A stretch of 64,000 nucleotides of DNA from an uncultured Alphaproteobacteria bacterium. Lineage in GTDB: Bacteria > Pseudomonadota > Alphaproteobacteria > Rhodobacterales > Rhodobacteraceae. The stretch spans positions 62,001 to 126,000 of the forward strand of contig CABZEW010000001.1 in the NCBI GenBank assembly GCA_902524845.1, read 5' to 3'. This document shows, one piece after another, positions 39,890 to 54,310 of the stretch. A program made the translations under genes and the position numbers. The notes under the pieces were generated by a model. The model was given only the letters and a program-made list of their open reading frames with translations. It had not been told where the DNA came from and searched no databases. Numbering within the stretch: the stretch's first letter is position 1; every line of letters begins with the position of its first letter.

Positions 39890-39965
39890 AAGTGAAATTA
39901 GAACAAAAAGTGAACATTTGTAAATAGTTTTTTGATTATCTTTTATAAAGGCTATTTGTAATAAT

Positions 39966-43685: not shown

Positions 43686-43713
43686 AGTGTTCTTTTACTG
43701 TATTATTTCTCGT

Positions 43714-43719
43714 ATTATA
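43714..43719 (-). promoter_or_regulatory. -10 element of a probable fabA promoter
   Basis: TATAAT on the minus strand, about 30 bases before the fabA start codon. No good -35 hexamer lies at 16-18 bases, so only the -10 is reported. Confidence 0.35.
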
Positions 43720-43866
43720 CAAATCAAATTACGTTAATGCCTTAAAAAATGTTCTATTTTTTGTCGTTATCTTCTATCACAAAATTATTATCGGAAATCC
43801 TATCAGGGTATATTTACAAAAGATAGGTAAAATAATCTTCATATCTATCACACCCAAAAGTAAAAA

Positions 43867-43895
43867 TTGAGTTGGACTTTTCATTAGTTTACGAT
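43867..43895 (+). promoter_or_regulatory. Putative promoter of the imuB cassette
   Basis: TTGAGT (43867-43872), a 17-base spacer and TACGAT (43890-43895) predict transcription starting near 43902, just at the LexA box and only about nine bases before the imuB ATG. The hexamers are moderate matches. The position relative to the operator is what makes it credible. Confidence 0.4.
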
Positions 43896-43901
43896 TAAAA
43901 A

Positions 43902-43916
43902 GAACAAATCATGAAC
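43902..43916 (+). promoter_or_regulatory. LexA (SOS) box overlapping the imuB start codon
   Basis: The plus strand reads GAAC-AAATCAT-GAAC, the exact reverse complement of GTTC-N7-GTTC, the LexA operator known from Rhodobacter and Caulobacter. The ATG of imuB (43911-43913) is inside it. LexA bound here would cover the predicted transcription start. This is a perfect match on eight defined bases at the gene most expected to be SOS-controlled. Confidence 0.75.
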
Positions 43917-45599
43917 AAAATAAAGTTGAAAAATAGATTCGCTTCCATTTGGTTTCCGCGATTACCATTAGAGACCATTTTATCTAAAGAGCCCCTATTA
44001 GATGCATTACCTATGATTGTTTCTTTTTCTGATGGGGAAGAAATAATATGCGCCAATGAATTAGCAAGAAAACTAAATATACATCTTGGAATGTCTACTA
44101 AAGAAACTCTCACACTAAACCCTCATGTTGTTAGTAAAACAGTTCAACATTCAGATATTAAGAAAAAACTGATTAACCTTTTTCGTTTCACATATCAATT
44201 CACACCTCTCGTCAGACTAGATAGCTATGATAGTTTGATGCTTGATATAACGGGATGTGAGAGATTTACTGGGAAAGAGGAAGACTTTATAGATCAACTA
44301 AGAACTCATTTTTCTAAAATTAATATATTCAGTGTTGTAGGGATTGCAGGAACTCAGGGAGCTGCTTGGGCTATAGCAAGATTCCAAAATAATTCTAACC
44401 AAAAACAACCAAGAGTAAGTCTTAGAAAAATAATCAATGACCAAAGTAGAGCCACAAGGATTAAAATCCCTAGTGATAGAAATACACAGAATTCTCAAAA
44501 GAAATCATCTGTCTTTAATACAAGCTATTCTATTAATAGCCCCAGATACAGGTCTAGAATAATTGACAATAATGAAACAGAAAAAGCCCTTACTTCCTTA
44601 CCATTAGAAGCTTTGAACTTAGAAAGTACTGATATAAATCAATTAAATTTATTTGGTATTTACAAAGTTAAAGATCTAATAGATATAGATTCATCTTCTA
44701 TTAATAGAAGGTTTGGAGATCATATACTCAAAAGAGTACGGCAAGTTTTGGGAAAAGACGCAGAATTATTCAGTAAAATTGTCTTGGAAGAAAAATATTC
44801 TTTTTCAAAAGACCTGTTCTTAGAAGAAATCACCTTCCAGGGTATAAGCGAGTTCATTAAAGCTCTTATTGATAAACTGTGTAATAAGCTTAAGAAAAAT
44901 AAGAAGCTAATTAGGAGATGTAATATTAGGTTTCCACCAAACCACAATCTACTTATAGAGATAAATTTCGGTAACCCGACACAAGATAGAGCCAAAATAG
45001 AACTGGTAACAATAGAAAAGCTCAGGACTATTAAAAATCTCAAAAATATAGAATCAATAATCCTTGAAGGAGCACATATTGAAGAAGCAAAAGAAAAACA
45101 AATAGCTATAAATGTTTCTGGTGAAGGTCGTGGCTCTAAATATTTAGATGAGGAAGAGAAAATAAGTTTATTGATAGCCAGAATTGAAGCTAGGTTAGGA
45201 AAAAATAAGGTGGAATCGTTCGCGCAGTACCATAGTCACATACCAGAGAAAACTTTTTCTTTAGATGAATTTAAAACAAGAAGAACAATGGAAAGGCAAT
45301 GGCAGAAAAGTAAATTTATAAGACCAATACTTTTATATTCACCGGATCTCATTAATGATACTTTGTATAGAAACAACTATATAAACCAATTTATTTGGAG
45401 AGGAAAAAAGTATGAAACCTTATATGTACGTGGCCCTGAAAGGATAGCGTCTGAATGGTGGAGAAAGAGTAAAGGAAAAAATTTTAGATTACGCGACTAT
45501 TGGGAGGTGGCAACAACATGTGGAGTGAGGTTATGGATGTTTGAAGAAAAGAATAAGCTCTCAGAAAATAAATGGTTCGTACACGGTAATTTTTGTTAA
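43911..45599 (+). CDS. imuB: ImuB, Y-family polymerase-like mutasome scaffold
   Basis: A 562-residue catalytically degenerate UmuC/DinB relative that links the error-prone polymerase ImuC to the replication clamp. It opens with the ImuB-type FASIWFPRLPLE. The palm/little-finger region has SLMLDITGCERFTG (about 108-121) where active polymerases carry acidic residues, and SVVGIAGTQGAAWAIARF (about 141-158) follows. A helix-hairpin-helix segment lies near 232-280. QLNLF at about 244-248 matches the general clamp-binding pattern QLxLF, though it lies in the hairpin region. The C-terminal domain ends with an ImuB-type WRGKKYETLYVRGPERI and YWEVATTCGVRLWMFEE. It heads a cassette with a methyltransferase (21-base gap) and dnaE2. 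imuA is absent. Confidence 0.9.
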   Translation: MNKIKLKNRFASIWFPRLPLETILSKEPLLDALPMIVSFSDGEEIICANELARKLNIHLGMSTKETLTLNPHVVSKTVQHSDIKKKLINLFRFTYQFTPLVRLDSYDSLMLDITGCERFTGKEEDFIDQLRTHFSKINIFSVVGIAGTQGAAWAIARFQNNSNQKQPRVSLRKIINDQSRATRIKIPSDRNTQNSQKKSSVFNTSYSINSPRYRSRIIDNNETEKALTSLPLEALNLESTDINQLNLFGIYKVKDLIDIDSSSINRRFGDHILKRVRQVLGKDAELFSKIVLEEKYSFSKDLFLEEITFQGISEFIKALIDKLCNKLKKNKKLIRRCNIRFPPNHNLLIEINFGNPTQDRAKIELVTIEKLRTIKNLKNIESIILEGAHIEEAKEKQIAINVSGEGRGSKYLDEEEKISLLIARIEARLGKNKVESFAQYHSHIPEKTFSLDEFKTRRTMERQWQKSKFIRPILLYSPDLINDTLYRNNYINQFIWRGKKYETLYVRGPERIASEWWRKSKGKNFRLRDYWEVATTCGVRLWMFEEKNKLSENKWFVHGNFC

Positions 45600-45620
45600 T
45601 AACTGAGGCTGTGAATAAGG

Positions 45621-46502
45621 ATGCAATTTCAAAAGAATAACACATTGGATACTAAAGCCCTTGGTCTCGAGGTCTCTTTGGCAATAGCAAAGTTTGTTAC
45701 TGGGAAAGAGAACATGCACTATGGCGTTTGGGACAATCTAGACCCTTGTCTTGAAAATTTAGGTAAAGCTCAAGAACAGTATACGAAGCTACTACTCAAA
45801 TACTTTCCAAAAAAGAAAAAGCTGAAGATCCTTGATATCGGTGGAGGTGCTGGAGAAACAGCAAAAAAGTTAATCTCCTTAGGCCATAGCGTCACTGTTG
45901 TTGTACCTAGCAATATACTAAGCAGACGATGCTTGAAAAATACAGATAATAAAGCTGAAGTGCATAATATAAAGTTCGAGAATTATGAACCAAAAAAAAA
46001 TCAGTCATTTGACTTGTGTCTCTTTTCAGAAAGCTTTCAATATATTCCTGCGAAAATTGCGCTAGAGAAGGCTAAAGGACTACTAAGTAAAGATGGACAA
46101 ATATTAGTCGCAGATTGTTTCCGCTCCGATCTAAAGCATAATAGTTACAATAGAAGGCCAGGAGGAGGACACCCTTTATCAGAAATGCTAAAACTCATTA
46201 AGGATATAGATTTGGGTATAGTATCAAAAAAAGAAATAACAAAGTCTGTTGCTCCGTCTTTGGATATAGAGCAAAAATTTTACAATGTGGTTGGTGTTGG
46301 GATAGACAAGGTGCAACAAGGTTTAGTAACAAGCCATCCTTGGAAAATGAGACTGTTTAATCTGGTCTATAAGACGATATTAAGTCAGAAAAAGCGAAGG
46401 CGTTTACACGATAGGATTTATGGAAACATGAGAAATTCCAGTAATTTTATCAAATTTAATCACTACATGATCTTTCAATTGTCTTCCAATAAGGAAGGTT
46501 GA
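45621..46502 (+). CDS. SAM-dependent methyltransferase inserted between imuB and imuC
   Basis: A 293-residue class I methyltransferase. An N-terminal helical region contains ENMHYGVWDNLDP near residue 35, a phrase shared with cyclopropane-synthase-, tocopherol- and sarcosine-methyltransferase-like enzymes. Motif I is LKILDIGGGAGETAKK (about 72-87), motif II/III CLFSESFQYIP near residue 135, and post-I KDGQILVADCFRSD near 155. A distinctive NRRPGGGHPLSEM segment lies near residue 178, followed by a basic C-terminus. The substrate (small molecule, lipid, DNA or protein) is unknown. It is on the same strand with 21- and 25-base gaps to imuB and dnaE2, so it should be co-transcribed with them under the same SOS control. 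Confidence 0.75.
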   Translation: MQFQKNNTLDTKALGLEVSLAIAKFVTGKENMHYGVWDNLDPCLENLGKAQEQYTKLLLKYFPKKKKLKILDIGGGAGETAKKLISLGHSVTVVVPSNILSRRCLKNTDNKAEVHNIKFENYEPKKNQSFDLCLFSESFQYIPAKIALEKAKGLLSKDGQILVADCFRSDLKHNSYNRRPGGGHPLSEMLKLIKDIDLGIVSKKEITKSVAPSLDIEQKFYNVVGVGIDKVQQGLVTSHPWKMRLFNLVYKTILSQKKRRRLHDRIYGNMRNSSNFIKFNHYMIFQLSSNKEG

Positions 46503-46527
46503 ATAGCTTAGTAAATAGAGCTTTTAG

Positions 46528-49383
46528 TTGTCATATTCAGAGCTTTGCATAACATCTAATTTTAGCTTTCTAGAAGGAGCTAGCCATCCTGAGGAGTATG
46601 CAGAAAGAGCGATAGAGTTCGGTTTAAAATCTATAGCAATTGTTGATAAAAACTCCATTTCTGGAGTAGTGAGAGGACTTAAAGTCATAAAAGAGCTCGA
46701 ATGTGACACCAAAAGTAAATTCTCTTCTCTAAAAATAATACCAGGGGTTACTATCGTCACAACTCATAGAACCGAAATAACATGCTTAGCTCAGACACAA
46801 CAAGGATGGAAAAATATATGTAAAATTTTAACTATTGGGAAAAAGAATTCGAAAAAGGGTTGTGCCCATATTGACTATAAAAGTATTCTCGCAAACCAAG
46901 ATGGCATTATATTCTTAGCTCATATTTCAGAAAAAAATCATAGCTTTTCAGAGAGACTTGGGTGGCTGAGGTTTATCCAGCGTCTCAAAAGAAATAGTAG
47001 TAGATCTATATACATAATTATGGCGCCTAGATATGATGGTTTAGATGAAATACGTTTTTACAAAATCAATAAGTTTGCAAAAAATATTAAGTGCGAGGTT
47101 ATAGCGTCCTCTACTCCTCTAATGCATCATGGCTCCAGACGAAAAGTCAGAGATACTTTATCTGCAATAAAAATGAAATGCACAATAGATGACCTGGGGA
47201 TTGAATCAAGCATTAATGGGGAACAAAGAATGAGATCCCCCCATGATTTTGTAACGATATTTAAAGAATATCCTAAAGCGGTACAAAACACTAACTTTGT
47301 AAGTGATAGATGTTCGTTTTCTTTAGATGAACTAAGCTATACATACCCTAAAGAAGTGCTAAAAGGAGAGAACCCTGACACACTATTACATAAGCTGACC
47401 TTTAACGGATTAAATGAATATTATGAAAAAAATATTCCTGTGAAGATATTAAAGGGAGTAAAAAAAGAGCTTCTTTTAATAAAAAAACTCAAATACGCTC
47501 CTTATTTCCTCACAGTGTATGACATAGTAAAATTTGCAAGAGGTAGAGGTATTTTATGTCAAGGCCGTGGCTCTGCCGCTAATTCCATAGTTTGTTTTTC
47601 TTTAGGAGTAACATCTGTTAGCCCAGAAATTGGGTCGATGGTTTTTGAGCGATTCATATCAGAAGCAAGAAACGAACCTCCTGACATTGATATTGATTTT
47701 GAACATGAACGCAGACAAGAAGTAATAGACGAAATTTACAGGAAGTATGGTGATAGAAGAGCTGCATTATGCGCTACAGTCATCCACTACAGAATGAAAG
47801 GGGCAATAAGAGATGTGGGTAAGGTAATGGGACTAAGCAAGGAAATAATATCCTCAATGGCTGAAAATATTGTTGGATGGGATAAATATAAGGTACCTCA
47901 TTATAACAATACCAGCTTAGAAGGTGAAAGTGAACACAATAGAATATTAGAGACTTTAGCTATCAGTGACCAACTGATAGGCTTCCCTAGACACCTAGGG
48001 CAGCATGTGGGCGGCTTTATAATCACTGAGGATTATTTAGATGAGATTACATCTATTGAAAATACTGCTATGGAAGGTAGAAGTATAATAGCATGGGATA
48101 AAGACGACATAGATTTTTTAGGCATACTAAAGATAGATATTCTAGCCCTTGGAATGCTAACATGCATAAAGAAATCTTTTGATTTAATAAAAAACCATCA
48201 TAATCGGAAAGTTAGCCTAAACAACATTCCACATCGAGATGCACGTGTCTTTAATATGCTTTCGGAAGCAGACACTATAGGAGTTTTTCAGGTTGAGAGC
48301 AGAGCTCAAATGAACTTCCTTCCAAGATTAAAACCGCAATGCTTTTATGATCTAGTAATACAAGTTGCCATAGTCAGACCTGGACCAATTCAGGGGGACA
48401 TGGTGCATCCCTATATAAAAAGAAGAAATGGACAAGAAAAAGTCACTTTTCCTTCCGAAAAACTAAAAGAAATTCTTGGTAAAACTCTTGGCGTGCCGCT
48501 ATTTCAAGAACAGGCAATACAAATTGCCATGAAAGGTGCAGGATTTTCGTTACAAGATACTGATAGACTGCGGAAGTCATTAGCGACATTCAAGAGAAAC
48601 GGTACTGTTAATAAATTTAAAAAAAGGTTTATTGATGGAATGCAAAAAAATGGGTACGACAAGGATTTTGCTAAAAAGTGCTTTTCTCAGATATCAGGTT
48701 TTGGTGAATACGGATTCCCTGAAAGCCATGCTGCAAGCTTCGCTATTCTTGTATATGCATCTGCTTGGATAAAATATCATTATCCTGACGTTTTTGCCTG
48801 CGCTTTACTAAACTCTCAACCGATGGGATTCTACTCTGCTTCCCAAATAATACGTGATGCAAAAAATCATGGGGTGAAAGTCAAAGAAGTATGCATAAAC
48901 AGAAGTGAGTGGGACCATTCTCTAGAAAATAACGGTGAATCTTGTCTTAATTTACGACTGGGATTCAGACAGATCAAAGGACTGTCAAAAAATGACGTCG
49001 ATAGAATTATTGAAGAGAGAGGCAATGGTTATAATGATCCTCAGGATTTATGGCATCGTATTAGACTGAGCCCAAGCATTATAAAACTACTAGTTAAAGC
49101 AAATTCCTTTCACTCTCTTAATGAGAACAGACGACTATTACTTTGGGATGCTCAAGCTATTAAAAAAACAAATTCTTTAGCCCTTTTTGAGGGTTATTCT
49201 GAGAAAGAATACTTACCGGAGAAGAGTGTCAATCTTCCTAGTATGACTTTAGGTGAAGAATTGATTCTAGATTATCAATCTTTACGGTTAAGTCTCTCTA
49301 AACACCCCATGAAACTACTGAGACCATTTCTTAAAAAGAGCTTCATAGAAAAATATTGCGCTAGTAGCATCCAACATGTTTAA
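46528..49383 (+). CDS. dnaE2: Error-prone DNA polymerase ImuC/DnaE2, C-terminally short
   Basis: C-family polymerase for SOS-induced mutagenic bypass. It has 951 residues. The PHP domain starts YSELCITSNFSFLEGASHPEE. The catalytic acidic residues are in PPDIDIDFEHERRQEVID (about 389-406, read PPDIDIDFEHE), then RPGPIQGDMVHPYI near 632 and GFGEYGFPESHAASFA near 730. A helix-hairpin-helix region lies near 810-870. The only possible start is the TTG at 46528, since a TAG lies directly before it in frame. After SLSKHPMKLLRPFL the protein ends within about 20 residues, whereas relatives usually continue about 100 residues into an OB domain. The stop shares TTAA with the convergent I78 gene. Confidence 0.9.
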   Translation: MSYSELCITSNFSFLEGASHPEEYAERAIEFGLKSIAIVDKNSISGVVRGLKVIKELECDTKSKFSSLKIIPGVTIVTTHRTEITCLAQTQQGWKNICKILTIGKKNSKKGCAHIDYKSILANQDGIIFLAHISEKNHSFSERLGWLRFIQRLKRNSSRSIYIIMAPRYDGLDEIRFYKINKFAKNIKCEVIASSTPLMHHGSRRKVRDTLSAIKMKCTIDDLGIESSINGEQRMRSPHDFVTIFKEYPKAVQNTNFVSDRCSFSLDELSYTYPKEVLKGENPDTLLHKLTFNGLNEYYEKNIPVKILKGVKKELLLIKKLKYAPYFLTVYDIVKFARGRGILCQGRGSAANSIVCFSLGVTSVSPEIGSMVFERFISEARNEPPDIDIDFEHERRQEVIDEIYRKYGDRRAALCATVIHYRMKGAIRDVGKVMGLSKEIISSMAENIVGWDKYKVPHYNNTSLEGESEHNRILETLAISDQLIGFPRHLGQHVGGFIITEDYLDEITSIENTAMEGRSIIAWDKDDIDFLGILKIDILALGMLTCIKKSFDLIKNHHNRKVSLNNIPHRDARVFNMLSEADTIGVFQVESRAQMNFLPRLKPQCFYDLVIQVAIVRPGPIQGDMVHPYIKRRNGQEKVTFPSEKLKEILGKTLGVPLFQEQAIQIAMKGAGFSLQDTDRLRKSLATFKRNGTVNKFKKRFIDGMQKNGYDKDFAKKCFSQISGFGEYGFPESHAASFAILVYASAWIKYHYPDVFACALLNSQPMGFYSASQIIRDAKNHGVKVKEVCINRSEWDHSLENNGESCLNLRLGFRQIKGLSKNDVDRIIEERGNGYNDPQDLWHRIRLSPSIIKLLVKANSFHSLNENRRLLLWDAQAIKKTNSLALFEGYSEKEYLPEKSVNLPSMTLGEELILDYQSLRLSLSKHPMKLLRPFLKKSFIEKYCASSIQHV

Positions 49384-49724
49384 CCGCAATAGACGCTGAC
49401 TATCTTCTTCTGACTGCCAACAATAATGGTCAATCTTTTAGAGTTAGTATTCTCAATACTTTCATTTCTGTCTAAGAAAATAATTCTAGTATTAGCAGGG
49501 TACTCCATGGCACCGAGAGCTGATTCAGGTTGCCCCACTAAAAAGTTCAAATTACGTGCTATACACTGACCGTCATCGGAAAGCTTAACCTCATTCCCGA
49601 TTGTTGGGCCTGTATATGTTCCCGTAATATTTGGTTGATCGATAGTAGATTGGTTTGTTTGACAAGCTACTGCTAGAAAACAAAAAGTTATAATAATAAA
49701 ATTTTTAACCACAGATATCCTCAT
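49380..49724 (-). CDS. I78-family protease-inhibitor-like lipoprotein
   Basis: A 114-residue predicted lipoprotein: basic start, hydrophobic h-region FIIITFCFLAVAC with a lipobox ending at Cys21. The mature part carries the peptidase-inhibitor I78 pattern: CIARNLNFLVGQPES near residue 53, NTRIIFLD near residue 78, KRLTIIVG near residue 95 and VSVYCG at the end, with the paired cysteines. It is probably periplasmic and acts on serine proteases of foreign or self origin, but only family resemblance supports this. It lies 14 bases after acs on the same strand. Its stop overlaps the dnaE2 stop. Confidence 0.75.
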   Translation of the reverse strand: MRISVVKNFIIITFCFLAVACQTNQSTIDQPNITGTYTGPTIGNEVKLSDDGQCIARNLNFLVGQPESALGAMEYPANTRIIFLDRNESIENTNSKRLTIIVGSQKKIVSVYCG

Positions 49725-53482: not shown

Positions 53483-54310
53483 CTAATCAATTTTTCCCCA
53501 CTCCGCCCAGGAACCATCATACAATGAAATTTTTGAGCAGCCAATTTCGTCTAACGCCAAATATAAAACCGCTGCAGTTACGCCTGACCCGCAAGTTGTG
53601 ATAATATAATTACTAAAAACAATTCCCTTCTGAGAAAAAATATCTAAGATCTCCTGCTTTTTTTTAAACGTAAAATCTTCATTCAGTAGAGTCTCATAAG
53701 GAACATTAATTGAATTTTTTATTGATCCAGATCGCAAACCACTTCTGGGTTCAGGCTCTGTTCCCAAAAAACGCCCTTCAGAACGAGCGTCAATAATAGA
53801 ACAGTGATTTAATTTAGTTGCCCTCTGAACATCATCCCTATCGGCTACTATACTCTTATCCTCATAAATAGTCAGGTGTCTAATTTCTTTTTCGGTTAGA
53901 TTAGCTGTAATCGATCTATTTTCTTTGACCCACTTCGGGAAACCTCCATCAAGTACAACTACATCAGAATATCCAAACACTTTAAACATCCACCATAGTC
54001 GAGCAGCAGACCTCATTCCCAATCCATCGTATATAACCACTCTATGTCCATCGCCTATACCAAGTTTCCGAACTGTGGAATTGAACATCTGCGACGGGGG
54101 CAACATGTGAGGCAAATCGCTTTCTTTATCTTTTATTTCGTCTATATCAAAAAAAGATGCTCCTGGAATATGACATTCTACAAACTCTTGTTGTGCGTTT
54201 CGCTTCTCATGTGGAAAATACCAGCTAGAATCTATTACTCTTATATCAGGAGCCTCTAAATGTTGTTCCAACCAGTCTGTAGAAACTATATTCTTGAAAT
54301 CATTTTCCAT
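53483..54310 (-). CDS. sseA: 3-mercaptopyruvate sulfurtransferase (double rhodanese)
   Basis: Two rhodanese domains in 275 residues. The first, inactive one has DSSWYFPHEKRNAQ near residue 26 and GMRSAARLWWMFKVFG near residue 105. The second carries the active cysteine in TTCGSGVTAA (about 242-250). The CGSGVTA loop favours 3-mercaptopyruvate sulfurtransferase over thiosulfate sulfurtransferase (CRKGV[T/S]). It acts in the cytosol in cysteine breakdown and sulfur transfer. It follows smc by seven bases, a common arrangement. Confidence 0.9.
   Translation of the reverse strand: MENDFKNIVSTDWLEQHLEAPDIRVIDSSWYFPHEKRNAQQEFVECHIPGASFFDIDEIKDKESDLPHMLPPSQMFNSTVRKLGIGDGHRVVIYDGLGMRSAARLWWMFKVFGYSDVVVLDGGFPKWVKENRSITANLTEKEIRHLTIYEDKSIVADRDDVQRATKLNHCSIIDARSEGRFLGTEPEPRSGLRSGSIKNSINVPYETLLNEDFTFKKKQEILDIFSQKGIVFSNYIITTCGSGVTAAVLYLALDEIGCSKISLYDGSWAEWGKID

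Follow-up and report, generated by a model that had tools for sequence, protein, structure and literature searches.

Gene order at the locus

Within the window (the whole 64,000-nucleotide stretch of DNA that was analyzed, from an uncultured marine member of the Rhodobacteraceae), three closely spaced genes lie on the forward strand, behind a single LexA-type box. The first of them, imuB (43911..45599, (+) strand, 562 aa), encodes a homologue of Y-family polymerases, putatively of the inactivated type, with a Pfam IMS domain (E 6.6e-14) and the motif LDITGC at residue 111. The second (45621..46502, (+) strand, 293 aa) encodes a class I SAM-dependent methyltransferase (Pfam Methyltransf_23, E 1.2e-9), and the third, imuC or dnaE2 (46528..49383, (+) strand, 951 aa, with a TTG start), encodes a catalytic core comprising PHP, polymerase, fingers and HhH regions. 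The box, of the form GTTC-N7-GTTC and found by pattern scan at 43902..43916 on the (-) strand, overlaps the imuB start codon. The coordinates confirm the initial annotation in placing the three genes on one strand, with gaps of 21 bases between imuB and the methyltransferase gene and of 25 bases between the latter and imuC.

That annotation had proposed a search for the same order in related genomes, and had allowed that it might be confined to this one. It is not: of 21 genus-mates, 15 have both junctions, the gaps there measuring 21-22 and 26-27 bases, and the order is also found at four further loci. Because both junctions recur in those 15 genus-mates, the order is more than chance. The remaining six comprise one in which the junctions lie on two contigs (G010), two in which the locus is cut by contig ends (G020 and G021), and three (G002, G004 and G009) in which none of the three genes was detected; since the neighbouring fabA gene was also not found in those three, the region seems to be unassembled there. 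Wherever the locus is assembled in a genus-mate, the methyltransferase gene remains in the operon.

ImuB has near full-length matches to the ImuB proteins of genomes from other genera that possess a short imuC (described below), and its dN/dS within the genus is 0.24. QLNLF at residue 244, the single match to a beta-clamp binding pattern, seems to be located in the thumb region and could be a chance occurrence. Scans for promoters and terminators gave an output about equal to that from shuffled sequence.

The initial annotation further described imuA as missing. It is indeed not at the locus, yet it is present in the same genome on a different contig (G000:C5:3112-3744, L238), with a LexA-type box of its own, and the idea of its absence was consequently rejected. 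The identification is founded on a direct match (E 8e-21) and on a profile-profile comparison with cassette ImuA proteins (probability 99.9, E 1.5e-36); the sole NCBIfam match of the protein is likewise ImuA (E 8e-4, below the cut-off). An imuA gene elsewhere in the genome had been named in that annotation as an outcome that would speak against its own proposal of an imuA-less cassette, and such a gene is what was found. In the draft genomes that contain two related loci, L158 and L171, imuA was not found.

A short DnaE2 core and a stand-alone OB gene

The imuC product matches the model of error-prone DNA polymerases with 1124 bits (cut-off 939), and does so only to about position 943 of the 1047 in that model; approximately 100 positions are absent, and the protein ends ahead of the DnaE2 OB domain. 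The core keeps the acidic polymerase motif PDIDIDFE (residue 385), which we take to be the catalytic motif, and its dN/dS within the genus is 0.093. The shortness of imuC had passed without remark in the initial annotation. A structure model of the core (pLDDT 65, 19 rows) was not used.

A separate gene in the same genome (about G000:C7:23720-24073, L282) encodes a protein that matches positions 935-1037 of the error-prone polymerase model (E 4.4e-29), which is by far its best family. The OB-fold Pfam domain was found in two such stand-alone proteins and in one full-length DnaE2, and not in two short cores. Row by row, an OB match was observed for none of 37 short-type sequences (35 once a duplicate and a row cut by a contig end are excluded) and for all 43 full-length ones (37 of them distinct). 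In a survey of 140 Rhodobacteraceae genomes, one per genus, a stand-alone OB gene was present in 59 of 63 genomes with a short core and in none of 62 genomes with only full-length DnaE2, a contrast of which the Fisher value is not corrected for kinship. The exceptions among the short-core genomes are G155, G174 and G248, which lack an OB match, and G190, which is ambiguous; among methyltransferase-bearing genomes the OB gene is absent from 3 of 21 clear cases (G103, G109 and G122). One genome (G162) possesses a stand-alone OB gene and imuA and has no DnaE2 core above the cut-off. A candidate short DnaE2 at G030:C2 was rejected because its contig ends at that point.

In a DnaE2 tree, a branch with support of 100 separates the short cores from the other sequences; a tree of OB sequences requires two changes rather than one, with a single change seen in 48% of bootstraps. 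All 24 positions that are at least 90% conserved in fused OB domains have the same majority residue in the stand-alone proteins. Short cores extend at most 60 residues beyond the part that matches the core in the window (which served as the query), and OB proteins in this genus have a total length of 101-117 aa, leaving no room at the break for intein halves of the known sizes.

These comparisons suggest that close to half of the Rhodobacteraceae genera sampled encode a DnaE2 composed of two polypeptides. It is probable that the two are separately encoded and both LexA-induced, having arisen by fission at a domain boundary with both halves kept; the core and OB pieces would then work together.

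LexA-type boxes and predicted SOS control

Only one exact LexA-type box is found between 43701 and 49400, namely that at the imuB start, and it occupies position -9 in all 16 genus-mate imuB starts in view. The pattern occurs three times in the whole window against an expectation of 1.38, so that the weight of the imuB box comes from its conservation. Exact boxes, for which the background over all loci examined is 0.075 per kb, are present at the imuB, imuA and OB genes: 19 of 20 imuA-like genes have one within -400 to +150 bases of the start of the longest ORF, as do 39 of 44 stand-alone OB domains within the preceding 250 bases. The methyltransferase gene has no such feature at its own start, either beside imuC (0/18) or elsewhere (0/52); in the 18 neighbouring methyltransferase-imuC pairs, which represent 16 distinct contigs, the imuC start has an exact box in two cases and a box with one mismatch in 13. 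The lexA gene was not found in the genome to which the window belongs (a draft that is 74% complete) and was found in 12 of 22 genomes of the genus.

The imuB, methyltransferase and imuC genes are predicted to form one transcription unit under LexA control. Co-induction of the methyltransferase by DNA damage, which the initial annotation had suggested, is likewise predicted, the only exact box of the operon being the one that overlaps the imuB start.

Distribution and nature of the methyltransferase

Strong purifying selection acts on the methyltransferase within the genus (dN/dS 0.077), and the DIGGG region of its SAM-binding motif is conserved. A structure-based search for its nearest relatives had been put forward in the initial annotation; when conducted with an AlphaFold2 model (pLDDT 93.7), Foldseek returned TleD, SpnF, AtmM, BezA, cyclopropane synthases and RebM as top matches, with identities of 10-19% among the 50 matches listed. 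Profile searches similarly matched AtmM (6uv6, E 3e-13) and RebM (3bus, E 1.3e-12). TleD, AtmM, RebM, BezA and the cyclopropane synthases (Foldseek E 1e-13 to 1e-12, TM-scores of about 0.6-0.7) share with the protein a class I SAM fold that has an N-terminal extension. Both searches favour small-molecule enzymes, and the model is closest to small-molecule and lipid methyltransferases, which speaks against a role in mutagenic repair. A nucleic-acid (tRNA) substrate is possible: the best single-sequence match in the PDB is a uridine-34 tRNA methyltransferase (E 6.4e-5), and the best NCBIfam match is CmoM (E 2.6e-7, 30 bits against a cut-off of 366), which also acts on tRNA uridine 34. NCBIfam and Pfam provided no specific family, all NCBIfam matches being far below cut-off.

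In other Rhodobacteraceae, the gene is usually found 3' of rppH, and sometimes adjoins imuC with a LexA-like box in between. Seohaeicola saemankumensis (L221), a cultured representative with a split DnaE2, is one example of the rppH-methyltransferase-imuC order. Eighteen of the 140 surveyed genera possess it, of which six have a short DnaE2, eight a full-length one and four none; its frequency (6/63 with a short core, 12/77 in the others; p 0.32) gives no co-occurrence. At L158, the methyltransferase gene is intact although imuB and imuC are both broken. An obligate part in the mutasome was rejected on the grounds of its presence without DnaE2 or with a classical one, and of its survival at that decayed locus. 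Two further candidates were also rejected: a plasmid-borne module (only four plasmid records match, all cyanobacterial and with less than 60% identity) and a defence module (a single PADLOC match, to a methyltransferase-like stretch, E 3.4e-8).

A proposed scenario and its alternatives

The explanation that we prefer, to which we assign a probability of roughly three in four, is that of a dispersed SOS mutasome with a split DnaE2 and a methyltransferase passenger. Its parts would reside at three genome sites (imuB with the core, imuA, and the OB gene), each with a LexA-type box, and LexA cleavage upon DNA damage would induce all three together. The OB protein would most likely associate non-covalently with the core, or with the complex bound to ImuB, to rebuild a working DnaE2. 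In the ancestral state the methyltransferase gene probably had rppH on one side and, on the other, an imuC that possessed a LexA site of its own; we infer that the methyltransferase-imuC pair then moved behind imuB in this clade and that the imuC box was lost, which would have placed the methyltransferase under SOS control without making it part of the mutasome. It is probably a metabolic passenger captured in the operon, given its occurrence without DnaE2 or with the classical form, the lack of co-occurrence with the mutasome, its integrity beside decayed imuB and imuC, the LexA-like box between it and imuC where imuB does not adjoin, and the small-molecule and lipid enzymes closest to its model.

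Those same observations disfavour the role in mutagenic repair first proposed for it, and make it improbable that the enzyme is a recruited damage-response component, kept between imuB and imuC because it methylates either a protein of the mutasome or a substrate linked to damage. A useful contribution to the damage response would likewise be compatible with its retention in the operon under strong purifying selection, with its predicted co-transcription behind a single box, with the gaps of just 21-25 bases, with the recurrence of the order in genus-mates and at four further loci, and with the weak tRNA methyltransferase matches that leave a nucleic-acid substrate possible. However, 12 of the 18 genera that possess it have either no DnaE2 (four) or a classical one (eight), and elsewhere exact boxes are absent ahead of the gene and the imuC box lies downstream of it.

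It is also conceivable, and in our estimation rather unlikely, that the stand-alone OB protein has ceased to be part of a polymerase and has become an SOS-induced single-strand-binding protein or the partner of something else, and that short DnaE2 functions without it. OB-less DnaE2 proteins have been reported (PMC3919608), some short-core genomes have no detectable OB gene, and G162 has the OB gene without a core; set against this are the co-occurrence of the two genes (again, uncorrected for kinship), the LexA-type boxes common to both, and the fused-type majority residue at every conserved OB position. Decay or mis-assembly of imuC, as opposed to a functional split form, would account for the missing model positions and has a precedent in the decayed copy at L158, but conservation renders it very unlikely: in 63 of 140 family genomes the core ends at approximately the same point, these cores form a single well-supported clade, dN/dS within the genus is low, and both the polymerase motif and the LexA-type box of the operon are kept.

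Relationship to known systems

The split-DnaE2 arrangement resembles the ImuA-ImuB-DnaE2 (ImuC) SOS mutasome of Caulobacter, Mycobacterium and Pseudomonas in that ImuA, ImuB and DnaE2 all have genes in this genome, the units have LexA-type boxes ahead of them and the core retains the polymerase motif. It differs in that the genes are dispersed, the C-terminal OB domain of DnaE2 is encoded by a separate gene instead of in the same chain, and a methyltransferase gene lies within the imuB-core operon. Dispersal of imuA, imuB and imuC over different loci, each under LexA control through its own SOS box, is a known configuration (PMC3901139, citing other work, probably Erill 2006), for which the relevant passages describe neither a division of dnaE2 nor an inserted methyltransferase. 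DnaE2 proteins without an OB domain are noted by Timinskas et al. (PMC3919608), in the main text of which the terms 'separate gene' and 'stand-alone' are absent; in the present case, the lacking domain is encoded by its own gene, which has a LexA-type box. The cyanobacterial DnaE that is split by an intein (described in passages of PMC3919608 and PMC3901139) is likewise a C-family polymerase encoded in two separate pieces, but its halves are rejoined by the intein, whereas the break described here is at the OB boundary and affects the translesion polymerase. Neither a DnaE2 with a separately encoded OB domain nor a methyltransferase in an imu operon was reported by title or abstract in the open-access literature searched.

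Implications

In the passages of the literature examined, the DnaE2 OB domain is given no role, and its natural fission would permit the OB part to be removed or titrated alone, with the polymerase untouched, in studies of its role in lesion bypass and mutasome assembly. The OB gene is a candidate partner for DnaE2 proteins listed as lacking that domain, and is a small gene of the kind that scans of LexA regulons could miss; if the proposed assembly is correct, its product would constitute a fourth, separately dosed mutasome component. The methyltransferase, in turn, serves as a cautionary case, in which a tight and conserved three-gene operon apparently resulted from rearrangement and neighbourhood alone would mislead as to function. 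The route that we infer, from an imuC box to both boxes and then to an imuB box only, would represent a readable record of the capture of a gene by the SOS regulon. Two loci have the double boxes expected for an intermediate arrangement of that kind: at L159 both the imuB and the imuC box are kept, and at L158 the imuB box is kept together with an imuC box that has one mismatch.

Conservation of the locus and its predicted regulation

In the window, imuB (43911-45599, carrying a Y-family IMS domain), a gene for a class I SAM-dependent methyltransferase (MT; 45621-46502, with class I methyltransferase domains) and imuC, or dnaE2 (46528-49383, scoring 1124 bits against the error-prone DNA polymerase model, cut-off 939), follow one another on the forward strand; the positions, strand and intergenic gaps of 21 (imuB/MT) and 25 bases (MT/imuC) reported in the initial annotation were confirmed by the gene coordinates. 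Upstream of imuB, on the opposite strand, lie genes which we take to be fabA, fabB and fabI, and downstream of imuC, beyond a small ORF, lies what is presumably acs; these names, like those of gpmI, envC, ctpA and rppH used below, were read from the sequence without a family scan. The small ORF (49380-49724) is convergent to imuC, with whose end it shares its last 4 bases; it weakly matches peptidase inhibitor I78, under the cut-off, and an equivalent occupies the same place in genus-mates and at the fetched loci L091, L158, L159 and L171. Among named relatives, the nearest to the window's genome are uncultured members of the Rhodobacteraceae, for example MED-G56 and isolates of the AG series.

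A search for the same gene order in relatives found both junctions in 15 of the 21 other genomes of the genus, with gaps of 21-22 and 26-27 bases. The remaining six do not contradict that order: in G010 the two junctions are split over two contigs, in G020 and G021 the locus is interrupted by contig ends, and in G002, G004 and G009 neither the locus nor fabA was found, so that the region seems to be unassembled there. The operon was also found at the same fab/acs place at L159 and L165 (genome G054), at L171, where imuB is cut, and at L158, where imuB and imuC are broken.

An exact GTTC-N7-GTTC direct repeat, given as the alphaproteobacterial LexA motif (PMC3323433), overlaps the start of imuB (43902-43916). 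Because the count for the whole window is not significant by itself (3 exact repeats against 1.38 expected, a number reached in 20 of 100 shuffles), the weight of this box lies in its conservation. It was present at the identical place at all 16 genus-mate imuB starts in view, and an exact box was found at 14/14 imuB genes from short-imuC genomes outside the genus, starting 21-73 bases before the extrapolated start; over all fetched loci, the exact repeat occurs at 0.075 per kb. Since the imuB box is conserved and a search of 43701-49400 found no other exact box, imuB, MT and imuC are predicted to form a single SOS unit. Exact repeats at 39901-39915 and 53749-53763 are compatible with chance.

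A DnaE2 polymerase apparently encoded by two genes

The imuC product of the window stops at position 943 of the 1047-position model. An OB-fold domain located near the end of full-length DnaE2 was absent from the two short forms scanned, and an OB profile matched none of the 37 short-type rows, which include one copy and one row cut by a contig end, and all 43 full-length rows, which include six copies. A separate small ORF matching the missing end of the model was found in 18 of 21 clear short-core genomes, a count that leaves out the broken or partial cores of G101, G104, G105, G118 and G127. The window's own genome carries such a gene on contig C7 (L282:2721-3074), which is accompanied by an exact LexA-type box and encodes a protein of 117 aa that matches positions 935-1037 of the error-prone polymerase model (E 4.4e-29; next family 3.5e-7). 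Judged from these sequences, the DnaE2 polymerase of this genome is split between a core gene and an OB gene. The stand-alone OB gene was found in 15 of the 22 genomes of the genus, the other 7 being drafts (G001 among them 90% complete), and an exact box lies within 250 bases before the domain at 39 of 44 stand-alone OB loci; those without one are L260, L261, L273, L300 and L301, with L261 and L300 representing a single gene.

The generality of this arrangement was assessed in a tally compiled by hand over 140 Rhodobacteraceae genomes, each representing one genus and, except for the window's own, having a completeness of 95% or more. The short core was present in 63, the full form in 63 (G056 having both) and neither in 15. 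A stand-alone OB gene accompanied 59 of 63 short-core genomes versus 0 of 62 full-only genomes (Fisher p about 1e-30, kinship ignored), and all 63 full-form genomes carried the domain fused. In this tally, open frames of 322-400 aa with an OB match (G190, G195, G199) were set aside as fragments, frames of 286-343 aa in G022, G048, G152 and G255 were counted as stand-alone (G022 and G048 after inspection), and an extra OB match right at the beginning of contig C2 of G030, whose core reaches the contig's other end, was counted as a cut full-length gene. All that G245 holds is part of a core, lying at the edge of a contig.

Short cores without a clear OB gene were seen in G155, G174, G248 and G190, and, in the set of 21, in G103, G109 and G122; apart from G190, these cases could reflect an assembly gap, loss or strong divergence. 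G162 (7 contigs, 100% complete) carries a stand-alone OB gene (C4:2083564-2083899) and imuA, with no DnaE2 core over the cut-off, and G056 combines an imuA, imuB and full-length DnaE2 cassette on C4 with the split form on C1. At the end of G030:C2, a single open frame of about 1509 aa (L104:6059-10585) runs from imuB into dnaE2 up to the contig end, and the final part of imuB matches in a different frame.

In a quick tree made without G030:C2 and without identical rows, 35 short-core rows were separated from 37 full rows by one branch with support 100. The OB tree, which is poorly resolved, gives two changes, one change being also possible. At all 24 positions whose conservation in fused OB domains is 90% or higher, stand-alone domains have the identical majority residue, and at 20 of these its conservation reaches 90% there too. 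Among 40 genomes from other families of the class, 20 DnaE2 matches exceeded the cut-off, and every one of them extends to model position 1037 or beyond.

DnaE2 proteins without the OB domain were noted in 2014 (PMC3919608), and a survey of 2026 noted many DnaE2 partners (PMC12926913); the portions of these surveys that were available do not describe the domain as a separate gene, which is what it is here. A literature search over titles and the starts of abstracts, mostly of open-access papers, returned no report of a separately encoded DnaE2 OB domain; since subscription papers lie mostly outside that search, novelty is not proven.

Neighbourhoods of the methyltransferase gene

A genome-wide scan with the MT (METHYLTRANSFERASE) returned 212 related loci, and the analysis was continued with the best 80. 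Within those best 80 of 212, imuC lies in the fetched flank of 31 (15 of them from the window's genus), and 8 of the other 49 have less than 2.5 kb of contig downstream. Outside the genus, 38 of 65 loci (again from the best 80 of 212) carry an rppH-like gene just upstream of MT, often with gpmI-envC-ctpA further upstream, and a short imuC follows MT in some of these and not in others; at L107 and L120, rppH and imuC are adjacent with no MT between them.

In 18 rows (16 distinct contigs) that hold MT and imuC in one stretch, a box before the imuC start was exact in 2 and had one mismatch in 13, mostly reading GAACAAAACGTGAAT or GAACAAAAGGTGAAT about 25 bases before the start; one shuffle of these stretches gave 0 exact and 3 one-mismatch boxes. 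No exact box was found at MT starts, either beside imuC (0/18) or without it (0/52). At L158 and L159 alike, imuB carries an exact box; the imuC box is exact at L159 and has one mismatch at L158. From the operons of window type at L165/L091 and L171 the imuC box is gone (two mismatches), and none was found at the MT/imuC position of the window. This pattern is read as successive steps of capture, in which imuC with its own box would have stood behind MT, the MT-imuC pair would then have been placed behind imuB, and the imuB box alone would finally have been relied upon. The MT tree requires at least 9 changes of imuC adjacency, 3 of them forced by well-supported branches.

Distribution and probable function of the methyltransferase

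At a threshold of E < 1e-90, which leaves out weaker matches in G174, G210, G220 and G252 and a second one in G233, MT of this family was found in 18 of the 140 family genomes (6 short, 8 full, 4 without DnaE2); across the 140, its presence was associated neither with the short core (p 0.32) nor with DnaE2 of any kind (p 0.10). G024, a single-contig genome, has MT, and a search of it for imuA, imuB and DnaE2 found none. At L158 (Paracoccaceae MAG cluster2_bin.97), the MT frame, 78% identical to the MT of L159, is open, as are fab, acs and the other neighbours, but imuB and imuC are interrupted by several frame changes and stops; the OB match of this genome spans 43 positions within a frame of 68 aa. 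Within the genus, dN/dS was 0.077 for MT, 0.239 for imuB, 0.093 for imuC and 0.042-0.086 for five neighbours (12-15 comparisons each).

A structure-based search for the nearest relatives of MT, using a model with pLDDT 93.7, returned TleD, SpnF, AtmM, BezA, cyclopropane synthases, a putative sarcosine/dimethylglycine methyltransferase and RebM; these act on small molecules or lipids, and from the model's resemblance to them MT is taken for a small-molecule enzyme. Counting against that reading are matches to tRNA methyltransferases, which supply both the best NCBIfam match (CmoM, E 2.6e-7, far under the cut-off) and the best single-sequence PDB match (E 6.4e-5); in the profile search, tRNA methyltransferases rank under AtmM, RebM and TleD.

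An unlinked imuA gene

The initial annotation had described imuA as missing, which does not hold for the genome as a whole: a profile search with cassette ImuA proteins located it on contig C5 of the same genome (E 8e-21), and in a profile-profile comparison its product matched cassette ImuA with probability 99.9 and E 1.5e-36. This imuA (L238:3112-3744) encodes 210 aa and is preceded, 33 bases ahead of its start, by an exact LexA-type box; in NCBIfam, ImuA is the protein's sole match (E 8e-4, under the cut-off). Equivalents were found by profile search in 19 of 21 genus-mates (E < 1e-18), where second matches (E 4e-5 to 1e-4), in frames of 353-369 aa, probably represent RecA; no imuA turned up when the L158 and L171 draft genomes were searched. 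Nineteen of the 20 unlinked imuA genes fetched, L244 being the exception, have an exact box between -400 and +150 bases of the longest-ORF start. That imu genes can be dispersed is already known (PMC3901139). Adjoining the imuA of the window's genome is a convergent gene of 1208 aa (L238:3746-7372), which caprolactamase alpha and then beta models match in succession, under their cut-offs.
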